From positions 1 through 64,000 of the forward strand of contig MFXP01000004.1 of the NCBI GenBank assembly GCA_001787535.1: a stretch of DNA of 64,000 nt, given 5' to 3'. The stretch is from Candidatus Peribacteria bacterium RIFCSPHIGHO2_01_FULL_51_35 (GTDB lineage Bacteria; Patescibacteriota; Gracilibacteria; Peribacterales; Peribacteraceae). The translations under genes were made by a program, and so were the position numbers. The notes below the pieces were generated by a model that was not told the DNA's origin, ran no database searches, and saw only the letters and a program-made list of their open reading frames with translations. How positions within the stretch are numbered: the first letter of the stretch is position 1; each line of letters opens with the position of its first letter. Of this stretch, positions 1-50,575 are shown in pieces.

Positions 1-490
1 GCTGATCATCCTCTCAGATCAGCTACCCGTCATAGGCTTGGTAAGCCGTTACCTTACCAACTACCTGATAGGCCGCAGGCCTCTCCCGAACCGATAAATC
101 TTTACTCGATTCCTCGCTACACTCGTCCTTTAGGTTTGTGATTGTTATGCATTCTCGGAGGGCTACATTGTTATATGGCTATATTGTTCGCAAGCGAACT
201 CAGATGTTTCCTGTAATAAGGAAAGACCTTTCTTGCTTGCTTAGCTAACAATATAACAATGTAGCAATATGACATTCCGATTTTTCATAACTTCCACAAA
301 CCTTCGATACAAGTGCAATGAGGAACCGAGACTATCCGGTATTAATCCGCCTTTCGGCGGGTTATCCCTGAGTTCGGGGGGAGTACCAACGTGTTACGCA
401 GCCGTTCGCCGTGGGTCTAAACCCACTCGACTTGCATGTGTTAGGCGCACCGCCAGCGTTCACTCTGAGCTAGGATCAAACTCTTCGAAA
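1..490 (-). rRNA. rrs: 16S ribosomal RNA, 5' part (runs off the left edge)
   Basis: Read on the minus strand the segment starts with the canonical bacterial 16S 5' end (GAAGAGTTTGATCCTAGCTC), continues through AACGCTGGCGG and AACACATGCAAGTCGA, and reaches the conserved GATCTGAGAGGATGATC block at the left edge. This covers roughly the first 300 E. coli positions plus a large insertion at about 109-327 in the V2/h10 region. The mature 5' end near 490 is estimated from homology. The rest of the gene, including the anti-Shine-Dalgarno end, lies outside the window. ORFs drawn over this region by the track are spurious. Confidence 0.97.
109..327 (-). repeat. IVS-like insertion in 16S helix h10 (element copy A)
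   Basis: About 200 nt separate AATACCGGATAGTC from the GGTTCGGGAGAGGCC block, where most bacteria have a short h9/h10 hairpin. The ends are inverted repeats (TCCTCGCTACACTCG against CAAGTGCAATGAGGA) and the interior holds another inverted pair (CTACATTGTTATA against TATAACAATGTAG), so the whole insert can fold into one long hairpin extending h10. There is no ORF of note. A clear second copy lies in the rRNA leader. Intervening sequences excised by RNase III at h10 are known from some Campylobacter 16S genes; that the same happens here is inference. Confidence 0.75.
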
Positions 491-565
491 ATGGATACGA
501 CCATCGTTCTCCCTTCGATTGCTCTCAGGGTAAACTCCGGTCTCTCTCCATTGAGAGATGAACCC

Positions 566-582
566 GCAGATCAGAGATCTGC
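566..582 (-). other. Small perfect hairpin in the 16S leader
   Basis: GCAGATC-AGA-GATCTGC is a perfect 7-bp stem with a 3-nt loop, about 80 nt before the mature 16S end. It may be part of the processing stem or antitermination region; the partner strand after the 16S 3' end is not in the window, so no role can be assigned. Confidence 0.4.
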
Positions 583-644
583 TAGTTGCTGATTGCTTTA
601 TTTTCCATGGCGCAATCGACCATGTTAATTCCAAAGGAATTGGG

Positions 645-881
645 GTCCGTGCACTTGGTTCCTTGCTGTACTCGTTTCATGTGTGGATGTTGTTACACAT
701 TCTCGGAGGGTTACATTGTTATATGGCTATATTGTTCGCAAGCGATCATCAGATGTGTTGCATACAACAATCTTCTTCATGTGCTTAGCTAACAATATAA
801 CAATGTAACCATATAACAGTTCCGATTGTTACAATCTTCACAAATTTTTGATTCCAGTACAATAAGGAACCAAGGACGGAC
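645..881 (-). repeat. Second copy of the 16S insertion element, in the rRNA leader (copy B)
   Basis: This stretch matches the h10 insert over about 215 nt, sharing CATTCTCGGAGGG, ATATGGCTATATTGTTCGCA and GCTTAGCTAACAATATAACA. Its ends are perfectly complementary over CTTGGTTCCTT and AAGGAACCAAG, extended by GTCCG and CGGAC, so it forms a hairpin of about 237 nt. It lies between the putative rRNA promoter and the 16S 5' end and should be part of the precursor transcript, not of mature rRNA. The central loop differs most between copies while the stems are kept. Confidence 0.75.
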
Positions 882-1007
882 AAGCTTCTTCTCTACTACA
901 CGATGCTGTGAAGGAGCTGACCCTTCCGAGGCAAAGCCTTATACAGGGGGTAGGAAACTCAGCTTCTCGTCCACGCAAAAACGTAGGAACACAGAAGCAG
1001 CCGAACG

Positions 1008-1035
1008 ATTTTACGCGTCCGGAACCCAGGGTCAA
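1008..1035 (-). promoter_or_regulatory. Putative rRNA operon promoter
   Basis: On the minus strand TTGACC, a 16-bp spacer and TAAAAT form a good sigma70-type promoter. Transcription would start near 1001 and give a leader of about 500 nt before 16S that includes element copy B. No other promoter this good was seen between 490 and 1300 on this strand. Confidence 0.55.
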
Positions 1036-1092
1036 GCGCTTTTAATTTGTTTTGATGCATTCTTTTGCACAGTGACGAGGATTCCGACAAGG

Positions 1093-1172
1093 CCGAAGAG
1101 TCCGAGGAAACCGAGGAACGTACTCTTCGGAATCGTCGGACTCTCGGTTTCCTTGGTTTCCCCTTAAAAAAG
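1093..1172. repeat. Long imperfect inverted repeat between rRNA promoter and rpsF
   Basis: CCGAGGAAACCGAGGA on the left is matched by the inverse complement of CTCGGTTTCCTTGG on the right, with the words CCGAAGAGT and ACTCTTCGG between them. A short CCCTT/AAGGG hairpin with an A-rich loop follows. It lies in a divergent gene interval and resembles other word-reuse hairpins in the window; no function is evident. Confidence 0.5.
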
Positions 1173-1301
1173 GGTGCTTGACCACGCTCTTCCAGACATA
1201 TACATTCTGCTTCCTGATTCCCCTCTGTCGTTTCTGACACAGGGTTTTACCCACCCCTCGATTCGCTACGCTCACTCGGGGTGGATTCTTATCCACGAAT
1301 C

Positions 1302-1865
1302 ATGCCAACGTTGCAGCCATCCACCGAGGAGCACACCATCTATGAGATTGCAGTGCTCTACCCCATCCTTGCTCAGAAAGAAGAGCAGGCTTTGCTGAAG
1401 GAAGTCGAAGGATTTTTTGCAGAAGTGGGTGCAAAGCAGATTGCAAAAGACGCCTGGGGTCGCCGCGGTCTTGCGTATCCTGTGGAAGGAAACATGGAAG
1501 GAAATTTCGTCATCTATTACTACGAGATGGAACCCGCGCGTATTAAAGAAGTGGATAACAACCTGCGCATCGAGAAGAACGTTCTCCGCCATCTCATCGT
1601 AAAACCACCCAAGGGTTACCAAATCGTGAAGTACTCCGAGACGTACGAGCAGTGGTTGAAGGAGCGCGAGACGGTGGACCAAGTTCGCTCACGCGAGAAG
1701 GAAGAGAAATTGAAAGAGCAGGTCGCCAAGAAAGCCAAACAGCAAGCGCGCCGCAGCGACGAGCAACGCAAACAGGAAACGCACGAAGTGAAGAAGCCGA
1801 TGGTGGAAGGCGAACTCCAAAAGAAACTCGATAAATTGATTTCCGATGACACGCTCGACATCTGA
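1302..1865 (+). CDS. rpsF: 30S ribosomal protein bS6
   Basis: The 187-aa product is bS6, which binds 16S rRNA in the central domain together with bS18. The opening TIYEIAVLYP and the block DAWGRRGLAYPV are typical of the family, and the ferredoxin-like core covers roughly residues 10-105. The remaining 80 residues are a Lys/Glu/Gln-rich, probably helical C-terminal extension that most bS6 proteins lack. The ATG at 1302 is preferred to the upstream GTG at 1281 because it places the TIYE strand close to the N-terminus. rpsR follows 4 nt after the stop with no ssb between them. Confidence 0.93.
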   Translation: MPTLQPSTEEHTIYEIAVLYPILAQKEEQALLKEVEGFFAEVGAKQIAKDAWGRRGLAYPVEGNMEGNFVIYYYEMEPARIKEVDNNLRIEKNVLRHLIVKPPKGYQIVKYSETYEQWLKERETVDQVRSREKEEKLKEQVAKKAKQQARRSDEQRKQETHEVKKPMVEGELQKKLDKLISDDTLDI

Positions 1866-1869
1866 TCCC

Positions 1870-2112
1870 ATGCAACCGAACCAATCTTTCCTTCAACGGC
1901 GTCCGGATCTGAAGAGCAAGCCATGTCCGTTCTGCGGCAAGCAGACCAAGTACATCGATTACAAAGATTACCCAACTCTCAAGCCGTACACGGACTACTT
2001 CGGCAACATTCGCGCCAAGTACTACACAGGCGTCTGCTTGAAGCATCAAAAGTTGCTGCGCACGGCAATCGAACGCGCACGCTTCCTGGCGATGCTCGCA
2101 TATCGTAAGTGA
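1870..2112 (+). CDS. rpsR: 30S ribosomal protein bS18
   Basis: The 80-aa protein carries the family signature IDYKDYPTLKPY and the C-terminal VCLKHQKLLRTAIERARF. CPFC near residue 18 plus the later Cys and His resemble zinc-type bS18 variants. The start at 1870 lies 4 nt after the rpsF stop; the track start at 1846 would overlap rpsF and add eight non-conserved residues. It forms an operon with rpsF, its direct binding partner on 16S rRNA. Confidence 0.95.
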   Translation: MQPNQSFLQRRPDLKSKPCPFCGKQTKYIDYKDYPTLKPYTDYFGNIRAKYYTGVCLKHQKLLRTAIERARFLAMLAYRK

Positions 2113-2158
2113 AAAACCTACGGTTTTTCCCTTACGGGAACCCTTTTCCCTCAGAAGA

Positions 2159-2202
2159 GTCGCTTCAGTTGGGCGAAGCCCAACTTCGCGACAATTTTTT
2201 AT
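2159..2202 (+). terminator. Intrinsic terminator of rpsF-rpsR
   Basis: A strong hairpin with AGTTGGGC-GAA-GCCCAACT at its core and GTCGC/GCGAC outside is followed by AATTTTTTAT. This is a textbook Rho-independent terminator about 50 nt after the rpsR stop. A weaker AAAAACC/GGTTTTT hairpin at about 2113-2129 precedes it. Confidence 0.85.
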
Positions 2203-2243
2203 AAAACAGAGGCTCGTCATTTTCTAATCAGGACGTGTAAGAT

Positions 2244-2468
2244 TTAGTTTTGTGTGAATAGATTCCCCTCGCTGATGAGGTATCGAATTTTTTCTCGTGG
2301 ATCGAAAAGTCCGCGCATATTGTTCTCTGGATCATCAGCGCGCACCAATGCCTTGTTTGAAATGGAAAGCTTTGTATATCTTTCGCGGTCAACAATCTCA
2401 ACATCAGCTTCCTCAATAGCTTGCTGAAGGGCGATGCCTGCTTGCGGCAGCTGCGATTCGGAGGACAT
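2244..2468 (-). CDS. Small hypothetical protein
   Basis: A 74-aa acidic, soluble protein with no family I recognise. It is rich in Glu, Asp and Ile, with no membrane segment and no cysteine. It fills the gap between the rpsR terminator and yebC and is read divergently from yebC. The reading frame is uninterrupted and no better ORF covers the interval, which is the main support for it. A TATTCT hexamer lies 11 nt upstream of the ATG. Confidence 0.5.
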   Translation of the reverse strand: MSSESQLPQAGIALQQAIEEADVEIVDRERYTKLSISNKALVRADDPENNMRGLFDPREKIRYLISEGNLFTQN

Positions 2469-2535
2469 AAATCATGCTCAGAATAGCTGGGATTACTCTT
2501 TGGTCAAAGATTTTCTTATTACCTCTGTATTGGCT

Positions 2536-2541
2536 TATACT
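2536..2541 (+). promoter_or_regulatory. -10 element of yebC (leaderless spacing)
   Basis: TATACT ends 6 nt before the ATG at 2548, so transcription should start at or very near the A of the start codon. No Shine-Dalgarno sequence is present. This is one of about 25 similar sites in the window. Confidence 0.6.
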
Positions 2542-2547
2542 AGGGCT

Positions 2548-3306
2548 ATGTCCGGACACTCCAAGTGGGCAAATATTCGGGTGAAGAAGACGGCGCAGGA
2601 TGCCAAGCGCGGCAAAGTATTTACGCGCCATGCCAAGCTCATAGAAATCGCAGCGCGTGCAGGCGGTGGAGACCCGGCATCGAATCCTTCGCTGCGCACG
2701 GCAATCGACAATGCAAAAGCAGACAGCGTGCCGAATATGAATATTGATAGAGCCATAAAGAAGGGAACAGGGGAGAATAAAGGAGAAGCTATGGGAGAAG
2801 TGGTCTACGCTGCCATGGGACCGGGCGGCACTGCGTACTTGATAGAGTGTTTGACCGAGAACAAGAATCGCACACTCTCCAATGTAAAACTTCTCATTGG
2901 AAAGAATGGCGGAAGTTTTGCGGAATCCAGTTCTGTCCTCTGGATGTTCGCGCGCAAAGGAGTCGTGTTAGGACATCGGAGTTCGGACATCGGAGTTCGG
3001 GCGGATGAATTGGAGCTGAAGCTTATCGATGCAGGTGCTGAAGATATTTCGACTGAAAATGCCTCCATCGAAGTCACGACTGATGCAGCGCATTGGACGC
3101 AGGTTCGTGATCTTTTGAAGACAAATGGTTATGAGATCGAATCAGCAGGACTCAAATTCGTAGCTTCCCAGAAAGTTGCTGTGAATGATCCTGCAGTTGC
3201 TCAAAAAATCGCGTCATTCATGGAAGCAATAGAAGAAGATGAAGATGTGTCGGAAGTGCACACGAATGCAGAAGTGTCTGCAGAAGTGATGGTGCAGGTG
3301 GGGTAG
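2548..3306 (+). CDS. yebC: YebC/PmpR family protein
   Basis: The 252-aa protein begins with the hallmark MSGHSKWANI and continues with the RRGKVFT-like KRGKVFTRHAKLI. YebC/TACO1 proteins are described as transcriptional regulators and as factors that help ribosomes through proline-rich stretches. The start at 2548 is set by the family N-terminus; the longer track ORF from 2434 adds non-homologous sequence over the promoter. A 14-nt direct duplication (GGACATCGGAGTTC twice, 2971-2998) encodes HRSSDIGVR in the middle domain, where the family is usually shorter. Confidence 0.95.
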   Translation: MSGHSKWANIRVKKTAQDAKRGKVFTRHAKLIEIAARAGGGDPASNPSLRTAIDNAKADSVPNMNIDRAIKKGTGENKGEAMGEVVYAAMGPGGTAYLIECLTENKNRTLSNVKLLIGKNGGSFAESSSVLWMFARKGVVLGHRSSDIGVRADELELKLIDAGAEDISTENASIEVTTDAAHWTQVRDLLKTNGYEIESAGLKFVASQKVAVNDPAVAQKIASFMEAIEEDEDVSEVHTNAEVSAEVMVQVG

Positions 3307-3325
3307 CATCGCCTTCCAGGCGATG
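3307..3325. terminator. Short hairpin at yebC 3' end
   Basis: CATCGCC-TTCCA-GGCGATG lies immediately after the yebC stop. It is a compact GC-rich stem without a strong T run and sits between convergent genes, so it could end transcription from either side. Confidence 0.35.
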
Positions 3326-3360
3326 CGGTGGGCATCGAGGAATATTTTCCACAATCATTT

Positions 3361-3389
3361 GTAGAGATCGACCGGCGGTCGATCTCTAC
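3361..3389. repeat. GTAGAG palindrome, copy 1
   Basis: GTAGAGATCGACC-GGC-GGTCGATCTCTAC is a perfect 13-bp inverted repeat. Its ends match six other short palindromes in the window while its core differs. It lies between the convergent yebC and PBP genes. The rest of the 3307-3448 interval holds nothing recognisable. Confidence 0.8.
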
Positions 3390-3448
3390 CGAACATTACA
3401 AAATTCCTGCCCACCACATCGGCAAGATGCCGATGGTACCCCACCCAA

Positions 3449-6400
3449 CTACTGCAGCAGCTGCTCAATCGGTTCATCAAGCACAGGATTGAAGTCCGGT
3501 TCTTCATCGCCGGTGATGTGAATCGTGATGCTATCTTCGCGTTCATTTTCCGCAAAGTCCGTGGCAACAACGCGGATTTCCACTTGGCCGCTGAGGGAAG
3601 CATCCAATTCATAATCCAAAGAGTACGGAGCTTTGGGCTTGGTGGTGAGCAAGCGATCATTCAAGTAAAACTGCACGTACTTGATGCCGCCTTCGTCATC
3701 ATCGGCATCTGCAGTGATGGTGATTTCCGATCCTTTCCGCACGGCATCCCCGTCATCCGGTTCCGTGATGCGAATACTGGGGCCGCTTTGGTCTTTGCCA
3801 AAGGAGAACGACACTTTATCTTCCACTTTATTAAAGTATTCGTCCGTGAGAATCACCGTGAAGGTGTGGGTGCCATCTTCTTTGATGGAACGCGGCACGC
3901 GAATGGGCGGTTCCAGTTCGGAACCTGAACCTGCCACCGCCACGCGCTTGCCATCGATCATATAGACGATCTCGCGGACGGCGGAACCAACGGAGAAATC
4001 CAACCTCGGCTGGAAGGAAGGATACGATGCAGTATCGCCGTTGCTTGGGTGCTCAATCGTGAGCTTCGGTTTGATCAAGCGGCCGGGGGTTTTGGAAATG
4101 TCACACTCTTCCGTCGGCGCGACGGGGAGCGGCAGTTGAGAACCGGAGTGCGTGTCGTTCGCATTCCAGAGTGTCATTTGCTTTGCCGCCCATTCCAACA
4201 CTCCCTGCTGCCACAGCGGCCAGCGATCGGCCTGAAGACTCTCCGGAACATAGAAACTCTTTTTCTCTTGCGCATCTTCCGGACAACTCTTGGAAGCAAG
4301 CAAGCCGGTCACTTTATCCACCGTGAGTTCCAAGCATGCGGGGTCATCCTCCGTCGGCGCGTGTTCGCTTAAGAACATATCCGCTTTGCGGAACGGAACG
4401 GGCGTGCAATCCGTCGGCAACTCGCCCGAGAGAAGAGACACCTGCGGTTGCACCAAGCCCTCCGGCACTTTGAAGCTCGTGGGTTTGTCTTTCAGCAATT
4501 TGTGCGCACTCCCCATGAAGTCGCGCCAAATGGGGGCAGCAGCAGACAAACTTTCCGCGCGTTCCGAGAGCGCTTCTGCAGACGCATTTCCCACCCACAC
4601 GCCAGTGACCAGAGCCGGTGTGTAGCCGATCGTCCACAAGTTATCCGGCCTGCGCTCCAGGCAGTTGCCGGAGTTCGATGCCTCCTCCGGGTTCTCCAGT
4701 TCCCCCGGTTCCTTCGGAGCCTGGCGCCTCAAGCACTTGTTGCTGGTGCCGGTTTTGGCAGCGGCTTGGTAGCCCGGCACGGAGAGCACGCTCTGCCAGT
4801 ACTCGTTGGGGCGCGCGGAGACATCGCTGAGAATAGACGTGATCTGGTACGCAACGCGCGGGTCCAAGACTTCCTCTCCTTCTGCGGTGGGATCCGCGCA
4901 CCGGCTGCAGGGGAGAATAGCCCCGTGCTGATTTTTTATATGACGGATGCTGATGACGGGTTTCCACTCGCCGGCGCTGGCGAAGGTGCTGTAGCCGTGC
5001 ACCATTTCCATCAGCGGCGTTTCACCGGCACCAAGTGCAAGCGGCCAGCCGTAATCAAAACCATTCCGTTCCACGATCAACTCCTGCTTGCGCGTGAGCG
5101 GCGTCGTCACGCCCATGCGGGACGTCAATTCCAAAATGGGGTCCTCCCCACCCGCCAGGAAAAATGCTTTTACGGCGGGAATATTTCTGGACGCTGCCAA
5201 CGCTTTGCGGATGGACATGATGCCCCAGAAGGCGCCATCGAAGTTCTGCGGTTCATCTTCGCCGAACTTTGTCGGCACATCATGGACAATGGTGGCCGGG
5301 CCGTACCCTTGTTGAAAGGCCGCCGCATACACGAAAGGTTTAAAGCTGCTGCCGGGTTGGCGCGGGGCGCGCACCATGTCCACTTTGCCATCGTGTTCCT
5401 CATCGCTGTAATCCATATTTCCGACGTAGGCGAGCACTTCCTTCGTCAGGGGATCCAACGCCAGAAGCGCGATGTTGTTCGCACCGATGCGATCCAGCAT
5501 GTCTTCCCGGTGGAATGCCACGGCCTTCTCCGCGGCCTGCTGCAGTTCCCAGTTGAGGGTCGTTTCGATAATCAGCCCTCCCTGCTCCAAGATTCCGGTC
5601 TCCGCACCGGCCAGCATTTCTTCCAATTGTTCGCGGATCCATAGTACGAAGTGCGGCGCACGAATATTTTCGCGCGTCGGTTTGAAGACGATCTTCTCCA
5701 ATTCTTCCAGCGCGCTCAGGCGTTCCGCTTCCTTGATGTACTCCTGCTCCTGCATGTTCCGCAGGACCTGGTCGGCGCGGCCTCCCACGTAGAAGGTCGT
5801 CGCGCCCGTGCCTAAGAAATTTCCCAGCAGTCCGATGCGAATGGCATCCTCCGGAAGATCCTCCGCGCTCCGTATCGTGCCCAGGCGAATTTGTTCTTGC
5901 GTGTCTTCATCCACGGCCGTGCGCATGTGCTGTCCGTACGGACTGAAGTAGGTCGGCCGCTGCGGCAGCGCCGCGAGCACGGCCGACTCGGCCAATGTGA
6001 GATCCTTCGCAGGTTTGCCGAAATACTTTTGCGCCGCCTGCTCCACGCCGTAGGCGTTCTGTCCGAAGGGAATCCAGTTCAAATAGAGTTCCAGAATCGT
6101 GTCTTTGTCGTACATCGTTTCCAGTTTGCAGCCGAGGATCAGTTCTTTGAGTTTGCGATTGATCAAACTGTCCTGCTGCAAGTGGAGTGCATTGCGCGCC
6201 AGCTGACGTGTGAGCGTGGAAGCGCCGCCGCCCCGGCCAAGGCTGAAGATGGCGCGCCCCACGGCACGCCAGTCGACACAACCACGATCGTAAAAGCGTT
6301 CATCTTCAATGGCGATGATGGCGTACTTGGTGTGCGCGGGAATTTCATCGCCGGGAATAAGCGTGCGATCTTCTTCTTCAAAGAGACGATAGAGCTCGAT

Positions 6401-6781
6401 GCCGTTACGATCGGTAATAACAGAACTCTGCGCAGCAAAGAGCGTTTCTGCATCACCGATGTCCGGCAACGTGAGCCAGAGAATCCCTATGTAAGAGGCA
6501 AGAAGAACACTTCCCAAAGCGCCCGCCCGTAATAGGAATTGTGGCCATCCCAAGCGTCGCTTTTCTGCGATGACCCACTGTCCCGTTTGAATGATCGTAT
6601 GAATAATCAATGTAAGGACGCCGGCCACGCGCGCGAATACTCCTTTCTTCTTCGGTTGAAATCCCAGCGCACCTTTCAGAGAGCGCATGCTCGCAAATCG
6701 TTTCTCACGCTCGGGCGAAACATCCTTTTTTGCCTGGTCTCCGCCGGAAATCGTTCGAATGTGGAATCCGTGATCTGACAT
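3449..6781 (-). CDS. Class A penicillin-binding protein with Ig-like C-terminal tail
   Basis: A 1110-aa bifunctional peptidoglycan synthase. A membrane anchor at about 82-104 follows a basic cytoplasmic tail. The GT51 transglycosylase domain shows EDERFYDRG (about 159) and GGASTLTRQL. The transpeptidase domain has SSFK (about 478) and KTGTS (about 676). After about residue 900 come two Ig-like beta domains (VYMIDGKRVAVAG and VQFYLNDRLL strands), an unusual tail that could bind the wall or partners. The ATG at 6781 is chosen because the track N-terminus (from 7024) is not PBP-like and would overlap the divergent gene. The large plus-strand ORFs inside it are shadows. Confidence 0.95.
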   Translation of the reverse strand: MSDHGFHIRTISGGDQAKKDVSPEREKRFASMRSLKGALGFQPKKKGVFARVAGVLTLIIHTIIQTGQWVIAEKRRLGWPQFLLRAGALGSVLLASYIGILWLTLPDIGDAETLFAAQSSVITDRNGIELYRLFEEEDRTLIPGDEIPAHTKYAIIAIEDERFYDRGCVDWRAVGRAIFSLGRGGGASTLTRQLARNALHLQQDSLINRKLKELILGCKLETMYDKDTILELYLNWIPFGQNAYGVEQAAQKYFGKPAKDLTLAESAVLAALPQRPTYFSPYGQHMRTAVDEDTQEQIRLGTIRSAEDLPEDAIRIGLLGNFLGTGATTFYVGGRADQVLRNMQEQEYIKEAERLSALEELEKIVFKPTRENIRAPHFVLWIREQLEEMLAGAETGILEQGGLIIETTLNWELQQAAEKAVAFHREDMLDRIGANNIALLALDPLTKEVLAYVGNMDYSDEEHDGKVDMVRAPRQPGSSFKPFVYAAAFQQGYGPATIVHDVPTKFGEDEPQNFDGAFWGIMSIRKALAASRNIPAVKAFFLAGGEDPILELTSRMGVTTPLTRKQELIVERNGFDYGWPLALGAGETPLMEMVHGYSTFASAGEWKPVISIRHIKNQHGAILPCSRCADPTAEGEEVLDPRVAYQITSILSDVSARPNEYWQSVLSVPGYQAAAKTGTSNKCLRRQAPKEPGELENPEEASNSGNCLERRPDNLWTIGYTPALVTGVWVGNASAEALSERAESLSAAAPIWRDFMGSAHKLLKDKPTSFKVPEGLVQPQVSLLSGELPTDCTPVPFRKADMFLSEHAPTEDDPACLELTVDKVTGLLASKSCPEDAQEKKSFYVPESLQADRWPLWQQGVLEWAAKQMTLWNANDTHSGSQLPLPVAPTEECDISKTPGRLIKPKLTIEHPSNGDTASYPSFQPRLDFSVGSAVREIVYMIDGKRVAVAGSGSELEPPIRVPRSIKEDGTHTFTVILTDEYFNKVEDKVSFSFGKDQSGPSIRITEPDDGDAVRKGSEITITADADDDEGGIKYVQFYLNDRLLTTKPKAPYSLDYELDASLSGQVEIRVVATDFAENEREDSITIHITGDEEPDFNPVLDEPIEQLLQ

Positions 6782-6869
6782 TCGTAGAGTGAGGAGTCTA
6801 AAGGGGATGCATCCTCGGGGCAATAGGAGAGGCCAACGGAATTGATCCGTAGCGCGATTCGTCGATTTC

Positions 6870-6897
6870 TTGACATCGAAGATCCGTGAATTAGTAT
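6870..6897 (+). promoter_or_regulatory. Promoter of the 77-aa gene
   Basis: TTGACA, a 16-bp spacer and TAGTAT lie 8 nt before the ATG at 6906. Both hexamers are recognisable, which supports the short spacing between -10 and start codon seen across the window. Confidence 0.65.
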
Positions 6898-6905
6898 CTT
6901 TGGGT

Positions 6906-7139
6906 ATGGCGACTGCAGATTTTGAACGAGGCTTGGAAAAGGGAATCGTTTTGGGGGAAGGTAGAGCCAATGCAATGGAAGTTGCTGCGGCAGCTTCGCG
7001 TCGTAGGCCCGAAACTTTTTCCAAACTTAAACCTCACTTTGACGAAGTGATGTCGTCTTTTGATCGCCTTAAGATAAATATTTTGAAGGAGGAGGAAAAA
7101 CGGGCGCAACCATCATTTACAGAGGGCGAAGGCATCTGA
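6906..7139 (+). CDS. Small hypothetical protein
   Basis: A 77-aa soluble protein, Ala- and Glu-rich and probably helical (residues 1-65), with no family I recognise. The ATG at 6906 is preferred to the upstream TTG at 6870 because a good promoter (TTGACA-16-TAGTAT) occupies 6870-6897. It is divergent from the PBP gene. The good promoter makes it likely to be expressed. Confidence 0.6.
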   Translation: MATADFERGLEKGIVLGEGRANAMEVAAAASRRRPETFSKLKPHFDEVMSSFDRLKINILKEEEKRAQPSFTEGEGI

Positions 7140-36837: not shown

Positions 36838-36894
36838 CCAAGATACAAGACGCAAGAAACAGTCTGTATCTTGTCTCTTGTTTCTTGTATCTTT
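36838..36894. repeat. Word-reuse hairpin before the DUF2304 gene
   Basis: AAGATACAAGA and CAAGAAACAG are answered by CTTGTTTCTTGTATCTT. Its last word contains the TATCTT that serves as the -10 of the next gene. Confidence 0.6.
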
Positions 36895-36899
36895 TCCGT

Positions 36900-37256
36900 A
36901 TGGTTTTGACTCCCTATCAAGTCGTTGCACCCATCTTTTCGCTGGTCGCGATCTTCTATGCTTGGAACTTGGTTGCCCGGCAGAAGAAGACAATCTGGGA
37001 AGCATTCTTCTGGACGCTGTTCTGGGGACTGGTGTGTGTCATCGCGCTCTACCCGAGCATTCTTTCGTATCTCTCCGCCGTGACGGGCATCGCCGACCAG
37101 GAGAATGCCGTGCTGGTCACCTTCCTTGGCATCCTCTTCTTCATCGTCTTCTATCTGGTGATCCGCTTGGAGGAATTAGAGCAACGTCATACAAAAATCG
37201 TCAGGGCGCTGGCTTTACGAGAAGCCGGGCTTGAGAAAGGGGAACAGAAGAATTGA
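36900..37256 (+). CDS. DUF2304 membrane protein
   Basis: A 118-aa protein with three TM helices (about 6-24, 34-53 and 68-90) and a charged, coiled-coil-like C-terminal tail (VIRLEELEQRHTKIVRALA). DUF2304 proteins frequently accompany GT2 polyprenyl-phosphate sugar synthases, and the adjacent gene is one, so an accessory role in presenting or anchoring the lipid-sugar enzyme is inferred. TATCTT lies 6 nt before the ATG at 36900. Confidence 0.8.
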   Translation: MVLTPYQVVAPIFSLVAIFYAWNLVARQKKTIWEAFFWTLFWGLVCVIALYPSILSYLSAVTGIADQENAVLVTFLGILFFIVFYLVIRLEELEQRHTKIVRALALREAGLEKGEQKN

Positions 37257-37318
37257 CAACGGACAATGTACAATGGACAACGTGTCAGTTTTCAATTGTC
37301 CATTGTCCATTTTCTCTC
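37246..37318. repeat. Word-reuse hairpin at the DUF2304/GT4 junction
   Basis: TTGACAACGGACAATG and ACAATGGACAACGTGTC are answered by CAATTGTCCATTGTCCA. It overlaps the last codons of DUF2304 and any extended N-terminus of the following GT4 gene. Confidence 0.6.
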
Positions 37319-50486: not shown

Positions 50487-50575
50487 ACAGGACGCAAAAG
50501 ACACAAAAGAAACAGAAGATGCAGAGGAGCCCGCATTCTTCTGTTTCTTTTGAATCCAATGAGTCTTTTGCATCC
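50487..50575. repeat. Word-reuse hairpin in a divergent promoter region
   Basis: GCAAAAGACACAAAAGAAAC and CAGAAGATGC are answered by GCATTCTTCTGTTTCTTTTG and GTCTTTTGC. It lies between the divergent UGM-like and GT-C genes. Confidence 0.6.

Follow-up and report, generated by a model that had tools for sequence, protein, structure and literature searches.

A hairpin insert in 16S rRNA helix h10 and a related copy in the rRNA leader of a Peribacteria genome, with a core resembling PF05635-linked repeat elements

The 16S rRNA gene of Candidatus Peribacteria bacterium RIFCSPHIGHO2_01_FULL_51_35 carries a long hairpin insert at helix h10, and a second copy of this insert is located in the leader of the same transcript. 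The two were found in a stretch of 64,000 nt (contig MFXP01000004.1, positions 1 to 64,000 of the forward strand), which is referred to here as the window. A sequence-only reading of this DNA had proposed a hairpin element in h10 and a homologous element in the leader. Our analysis confirms this observation: the two inserts of 218 nt and 221 nt share 78% identity across 222 nt (BLAST E 2.6e-38) and both fold into long hairpins. We think it rather probable that both inserts derive from a single selfish, non-coding hairpin that occupies two hairpin tips within one transcript, and that their core belongs, as a form without an ORF, to a mobile family linked to PF05635 genes. The modest genome size, the 16S inserts and the gene content would be in keeping with a Patescibacteria (CPR) lineage. 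The pair is best seen as a composite, in which an rrn-restricted hairpin appears to enclose an octamer core of the PF05635-linked kind. The features of the 16S gene and the two inserts are as follows.

1–491, minus strand: 5′ part of the 16S rRNA gene (RF00177 model positions 1–308, 214.6 bits), continuing past the end of the window and of the contig.
109–326, minus strand: h10 insert of 218 nt in place of a 3–4-nt loop, from comparison with the 16S of relatives (fold z −11.9).
154–279, minus strand: inner core of the h10 insert, an octamer-arm hairpin of period 8 with the CGCTTGCGA motif, matched by a dispersed family in this genome and in relatives.
654–874, minus strand: leader copy of the insert, 221 nt (fold z −8.3).
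702–824, minus strand: inner core of the leader copy, an octamer-arm hairpin, from genome search, alignment and repeat period.

Position 1 of the Rfam model RF00177 corresponds to window position 491. The contig terminates within the gene near model position 308, and a DNA search located the 16S 3′ end on another contig, C1. The 16S of this genome was read as these two parts, the middle of the gene lying outside the sequence seen. A search of the genome with the RF00177 family gave no match, the probable cause being that the gene is split over contigs. While the h10 loop of relatives comprises 3–4 nt (CCGGATAGTCTCGTAAGAGTAAAG; CTCGTAAGAG), it spans 218 nt here, from CTCG to the 3′ strand of the h10 stem. 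Reading of the sequence revealed no ORF in the h10 insert or in the leader copy. SSU rRNA was the sole match to Rfam models in window positions 1–7000, and a group I or group II intron was rejected for lack of an intron match in this region. The h10 insert shares with the intervening sequences (IVS) of rRNA its position in an rRNA gene, at the variable tip of a helix, and its complementary ends, which form a long stem. An internal PF05635 ORF, which some IVS have and which is not required of them, is absent here and is present in an h6 insert of the relative G049.

As the contig ends inside 16S and the genome consists of 18 contigs, collapsed rrn loci or a read-level duplication might have produced the second copy, a danger that the sequence-only reading had itself raised. 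However, the copies are 22% different and carry compensatory changes, the flanks of each are unique and conserved in relatives, and a like arrangement is found independently in the relative G002. The single occurrence of the 16S 5′ end in the genome speaks against collapsed loci. We consider an assembly artefact highly improbable.

The relationship between the two copies is well beyond chance, with a local alignment score of 120 where 200 shuffles reach 27.5 at most. Identical blocks had been described as 13–20 nt long; the longest extends further, to 34 nt (164–197 equals 712–745). Identity varies by part, being 66–68% in the outer stems, 86–96% in the inner arms and 56% in the loop. This distribution indicates that the copies are related, though not very recent; the earlier description of them as recent relatives holds only in part, their being recent finding no support. 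A repeat period of 8 was found in all four arms. Each copy forms a single long hairpin, the fold z values being relative to dinucleotide shuffles. When the 78 base pairs of the h10 fold were mapped on the leader copy, 45 were unchanged, 8 were changed on one side, 5 were changed on both sides with pairing kept, 16 were broken and 4 fell in gaps. Controls in which one strand was slid by 1–3 nt gave 0–1 two-sided changes. The comparison of these counts indicates that the RNA stem has been kept, either under selection or by being re-formed.

The leader in which the second copy is located has the following features.

627–644, minus strand: conserved 16S leader motif CCCAATTCCTTTGGAATT, present in the leaders of several relatives.
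645–650, minus strand: 3′ strand (ACGGAC) of the short leader stem that bears the leader insert, complementary to GTCCGT near 876–881.
874–883, minus strand: 5′ strand of the leader stem (TTGTCCGTCC), from leader comparison and fold.
888–916, minus strand: boxA-like segment and 5′ strand of the leader–trailer processing stem.
1009–1036, minus strand: probable rRNA promoter, with −35 TTGACC at 1031–1036 and −10 TAAAAT at about 1009–1014, recognised from sequence and similar to TTGAC/TAAAAT boxes in relatives.
1102–1161, no strand assigned: a further hairpin, its arms made of repeats (GGAAACCGAGG) with a period of about 9, directly upstream of the promoter, recognised by its inverted repeats, with a word like the arms of the PF05635 locus L046.

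Relatives share a common leader layout, namely a boxA-like segment (CTCCTTCACAGCATCGTGTAGTAGAGAAG), a variable hairpin and then CCCAATTCCTTTGGAATT. The leader copy occupies the tip of the variable hairpin, between the promoter and the 16S 5′ end. Pairing is predicted between the boxA-like segment and the 16S trailer, which lies on contig C1 (−48.9 kcal/mol), and this would place the leader copy inside the processing stem yet outside the mature 16S. On the same contig (L183 1–1600), no 23S follows the 16S 3′ end in the part read, and the 16S is seemingly unlinked from the 23S.

The genome has one RNase III gene. By analogy with known IVS (PMC4990558, PMC8708148), RNase III would cut the h10 hairpin after transcription to yield a split 16S. 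The insert would be tolerated because the variable tip alone is lengthened. The leader copy would be thrown away with the pre-16S leader, because it lies between the leader–trailer processing stem and the mature 5′ end.

We compared the rrn leaders and h10 regions of relatives, as the sequence-only reading had suggested, and h10 proved to be a recurrent insertion site. Among 99 class-level 16S loci with leaders, the h6 region exceeds 70 nt in 20 and an h10 insert is present in 11; about 30 of the 99 have an h6 or h10 insert, and leader copies occur in two. Copying into the leader has taken place more than once. Paralogous pairs of rrn inserts are found between h10 and the leader in our genome, between h6 and the leader in G002 (z about 24) and, more weakly and in AT-rich sequence, between h6 and h10 in G053. 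The low number of leader copies bears on the possibility that the leader copy is maintained because it serves coordinated processing, for example by recruiting or titrating RNase III or by pairing with the h10 insert. Such a role would be in keeping with the compensatory changes that preserve pairs, and with the place of the copy just inside the leader–trailer processing stem. However, most relatives with an h10 insert have no leader copy, and sequence and position vary. A host function appears quite improbable to us and is unnecessary to explain the leader copy, leader copies being rare.

The hairpin of G002 is 80–82 nt long with CCAGC...GCTGG ends, and it is found in the 16S leader, in h6, in h10 and at 23S sites, at least five in number, on another contig. 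This distribution indicates that, in at least one relative, rRNA hairpins multiply from one rRNA gene to another and into the leader. One 23S site of G002 (L366 83–400) contains a 318-nt insert with the same ends as the hairpins of about 81 nt, and this insert encodes a GIY-YIG domain (60.5 bits). Similarly, the 16S h10 insert of G035 (L177 927–1230) encodes GIY-YIG, and a short ORF-less h10 derivative with nearly the ends of G035 is located at the same site in G032 (L178). The inserts of our genome are like these GIY-YIG hairpin inserts in their long terminal stem and in the occurrence of ORF-less derivatives at other rRNA sites including the leader. They differ in that they have no sequence relation to the G002 hairpin family, in which no periodic arms were seen. 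A search of 464 kb of our own sequence gave no GIY-YIG relative. Two further observations were made on relatives. AT-rich long hairpins in h10 of G049 (L163 1320–1590) and in h6 and h10 of G053 (L164) probably form one family, and the start of the G021 h10 insert resembles our outer stem with weak similarity.

The sequence-only reading had also raised the question of other genomic copies. With the leader copy as query, a search of the whole genome (18 contigs) returned the two rrn copies and about 11 other loci, which match the inner ~125 nt alone. The outer stems have no copy in this genome beyond the two rrn inserts. The dispersed loci are palindromic, their arms consisting of tandem octamers (TTGTTATA and variants), and most have a CGCAAGCGA motif beside one arm; related palindromes were found in 10 of the 59 relatives searched. 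One locus on contig C14 (L056) has a PF05635 gene (23S_rRNA_IVP, 78 bits) between the octamer arms of the rrn core, and the arms contain the start and stop codons of this gene. The h10 inner arm and the 5′ arm of the C14 element agree at 33 of 38 positions, a match that continues through the region of the start codon, and the C14 arms are the best match to the rrn core among 67 PF05635 arms. PF05635 is the rRNA intervening-sequence protein, a four-helix bundle. The simplest reading of these similarities makes the rrn core an ORF-less derivative of a C14-type PF05635 element.

The confinement of the outer stems to two places is what would be expected if the inserts arose by local duplication, through a template switch or recombination between hairpins 330 nt apart, from h10 to the leader or in the reverse direction, the octamer core having been inserted earlier by whatever means. 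Both places are hairpin tips in one operon, and within-rrn pairs are known from G002 (h6 and leader) and G053 (h6 and h10) as well. The G002 hairpin, however, is also present at many 23S sites on another contig, so that copying there was not solely local. We hold local duplication without mobility to be the less probable account. For the leader copy itself, as the outer stems have no other copy, local duplication without mobile machinery provides an explanation that serves as well, and the second copy may owe its origin either to insertion driven by the element or to a local template switch.

In the explanation that we prefer, a selfish hairpin would occupy the tip of 16S h10 and the tip of the variable leader hairpin. 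Its core would come from the mobile hairpin family with tandem octamer arms (TTGTTATA) linked to the C14 PF05635 gene. An rrn-only outer stem is expected of a hairpin spreading between rRNA hairpin tips. The spread would probably proceed by DNA hairpin copying between tips with the protein of the element helping in trans, the candidate helper being the PF05635 protein for the core and the GIY-YIG nuclease in the parallel G002 family. The mobility enzyme and the direction of copying are what we infer. Neither a transposition event nor an empty site was observed between close strains. That the element could spread as a hairpin had been suggested before, and this fits the dispersed core, the PF05635 element with matching arms and the multi-site family of G002.

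An inspection of 464 kb of our own sequence (about 39% of the genome) identified 46 periodic-arm hairpins, compared with none in a block shuffle. Three of the 46 are long-looped; judged by coordinates, a PF05635 gene lies in two of these and a Y1 gene in the third. The words of the 43 short hairpins fit the arms of the PF05635 genes of the same genome better than all 1000 random sets of arms from relatives. Fourteen of the 43 lie mostly inside ORFs (at least 120 aa) where 36 are expected, so ORFs are avoided. We propose a family of PF05635-linked tandem-repeat hairpins, to which the rrn pair would belong by its inverted arms of 6–9-nt tandem repeats, by the C14 PF05635 gene of this genome, whose arms match, and by the dispersed ORF-less copies.

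More hairpins with tandem-repeat arms were observed in the window at 36840–36893, 37255–37314 and 50504–50552, with periods of 7, 7 and 9, and the one at 37255–37314 fits the arms of the PF05635 locus L050 of this genome. A tandem 14-nt unit (GTTMGGACATCGGA, about two heptamers) at 2967–2996 in a yebC-like gene looks like a single element arm in coding sequence. A 38-nt imperfect inverted repeat lies at 3297–3445, between the yebC-like gene and its neighbour, and its 73-nt loop holds a second hairpin, which is perfect and 14 nt long.

Twelve PF05635 genes were counted in the genome, and most of them lie between inverted repeats of short tandem repeats, the word differing from gene to gene. In a set of 80 PF05635 genes, drawn from this genome and its relatives, the mean score between the two flanks of a gene is 18.4, compared with 9.2 for the flanks of different genes. 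Fifty-one of the 80 exceed the 99th percentile of mismatched pairs, as does one of 72 flank controls, and the repeat periods in the group are 7, 9, 8 and 6. A wider sample of 78 PF05635 loci from Bacteroidota, Proteobacteria, Clostridia, Acidobacteria, archaea and others gave a mean of 20.5 against 9.1 for mismatched pairs, with 45 loci over the threshold. The collection was scanned for PF05635 with a 5-sequence alignment, a 12-sequence alignment being too diverse. In the relative G049, a classmate of this lineage, a PF05635 gene with period-7 arms (GGTTGTT) is located within 16S h6. Nearest neighbours in the protein tree have the same period in 44 of 59 cases (mean 20.7 and maximum 36 in 2000 label shuffles). 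The arms and the PF05635 protein are thus inherited together, and the link between period and tree may show no more than this. We infer that the PF05635 protein reads the repeat. The protein is not known to have an enzymatic activity. The nearest solved structures, 2gsc and 2rld, have five chains each, and the Xanthomonas S23p was reported as a ring-shaped homopentamer (PMC4990558).

The genome also has eight Y1_Tnp genes, one of them between AATGACC arms, and these arms match those around a PF05635 gene. The octamer hairpins might accordingly be of the REP/MITE type and have been mobilised by a Y1 (HUH) transposase. However, none of the eight Y1 genes is surrounded by octamer arms, and four relatives (G007, G012, G013 and G039) have periodic-arm PF05635 elements with no detected Y1_Tnp match. 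On account of these four genomes we reject the Y1 transposase as a general partner, and we regard REP-like spread by Y1 as unlikely. Like REP/REPIN sequences with their Y1 gene (RAYT), the hairpins studied here are dispersed intergenic palindromes with a cognate gene. Unlike REP/REPIN, their arms are 6–9-nt tandem repeats, their cognate gene is PF05635 and several carrier genomes have no Y1. Heptamer arms (AATGACCAATGACCA) bracket both the Y1 transposase gene L155 (C6:106441-106797) and the PF05635 gene L054 (C6:72069-72218). Pfam did not recover a Y1 match from L155 in the reading frame given; the gene may be on the other strand, and its assignment follows the set of eight Y1_Tnp genes.

IVS of rRNA with an S23p/PF05635 protein are known from Leptospira, Coxiella and Brucella. 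Our inserts are like them in the variable rRNA helix tip, the long complementary ends and the PF05635 link, and unlike them in their location in 16S h10 and the leader, in having no ORF, in the combination of an outer stem with an octamer core and in the dispersal of this core in the genome. In the 23S IVS of Coxiella, the terminal stem measures 28 bp and the S23p ORF is preceded by tandem heptamers (GACAGAT); RNase III cuts this IVS out in vitro (PMC4990558). This stem with heptamers is in line with the pattern of PF05635 and tandem repeats. A survey of rRNA-gene inserts likewise found them, in bacteria with small genomes, at the tips of stem-loops; some encode 23S_rRNA_IVP or GIY-YIG, and many short ones are unclassified. 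In the parts of that survey available to us, it concerns inserts of at least 100 bp inside genes relative to E. coli, and leaders, insert paralogy and dispersed copies are not treated. Paired tandem octamers or heptamers were described in Geobacter metallireducens as 'global regulator sites' (PMC2700814). As far as the accessible text of that paper goes, these sites are like the hairpins studied here, being intergenic pairs of 4–5 tandem 7–8-mers on opposite strands with variable spacing and many copies, whereas they are read there as regulator binding sites and the PF05635 link is not made (PMC2700814).

Possible analogues are the heptanucleotide repeats of cyanobacteria (STRR) and the mitochondrial double-hairpin elements. 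We found no earlier description of the link between PF05635 and tandem repeats in the open-licence literature. On a wider scale, PF05635 proteins could be the trans-acting partners of widespread mobile hairpins whose arms of 6–9-nt tandem repeats are read by a ring-shaped protein, with the period set by protein clade; the classical rRNA IVS, the scattered periodic hairpins and the h10/leader pair would then all be members or derivatives. We give this general proposal an even chance.

Although rRNA IVS have been known since about 1990, we are aware of no agreed origin for them and of no role for their protein. The occurrence of PF05635 genes with cognate arms and ORF-less hairpins makes the idea that IVS are mobile elements directly testable. 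The link supplies the PF05635 protein with a concrete candidate ligand, and it offers an explanation for short-tandem-repeat hairpins that have elsewhere been called regulator sites. The evidence points to a widespread, little-recognised class of mobile DNA. The leader copies show that elements of this kind settle as well in those parts of rrn operons that are transcribed and then discarded, which surveys of mature rRNA overlook.
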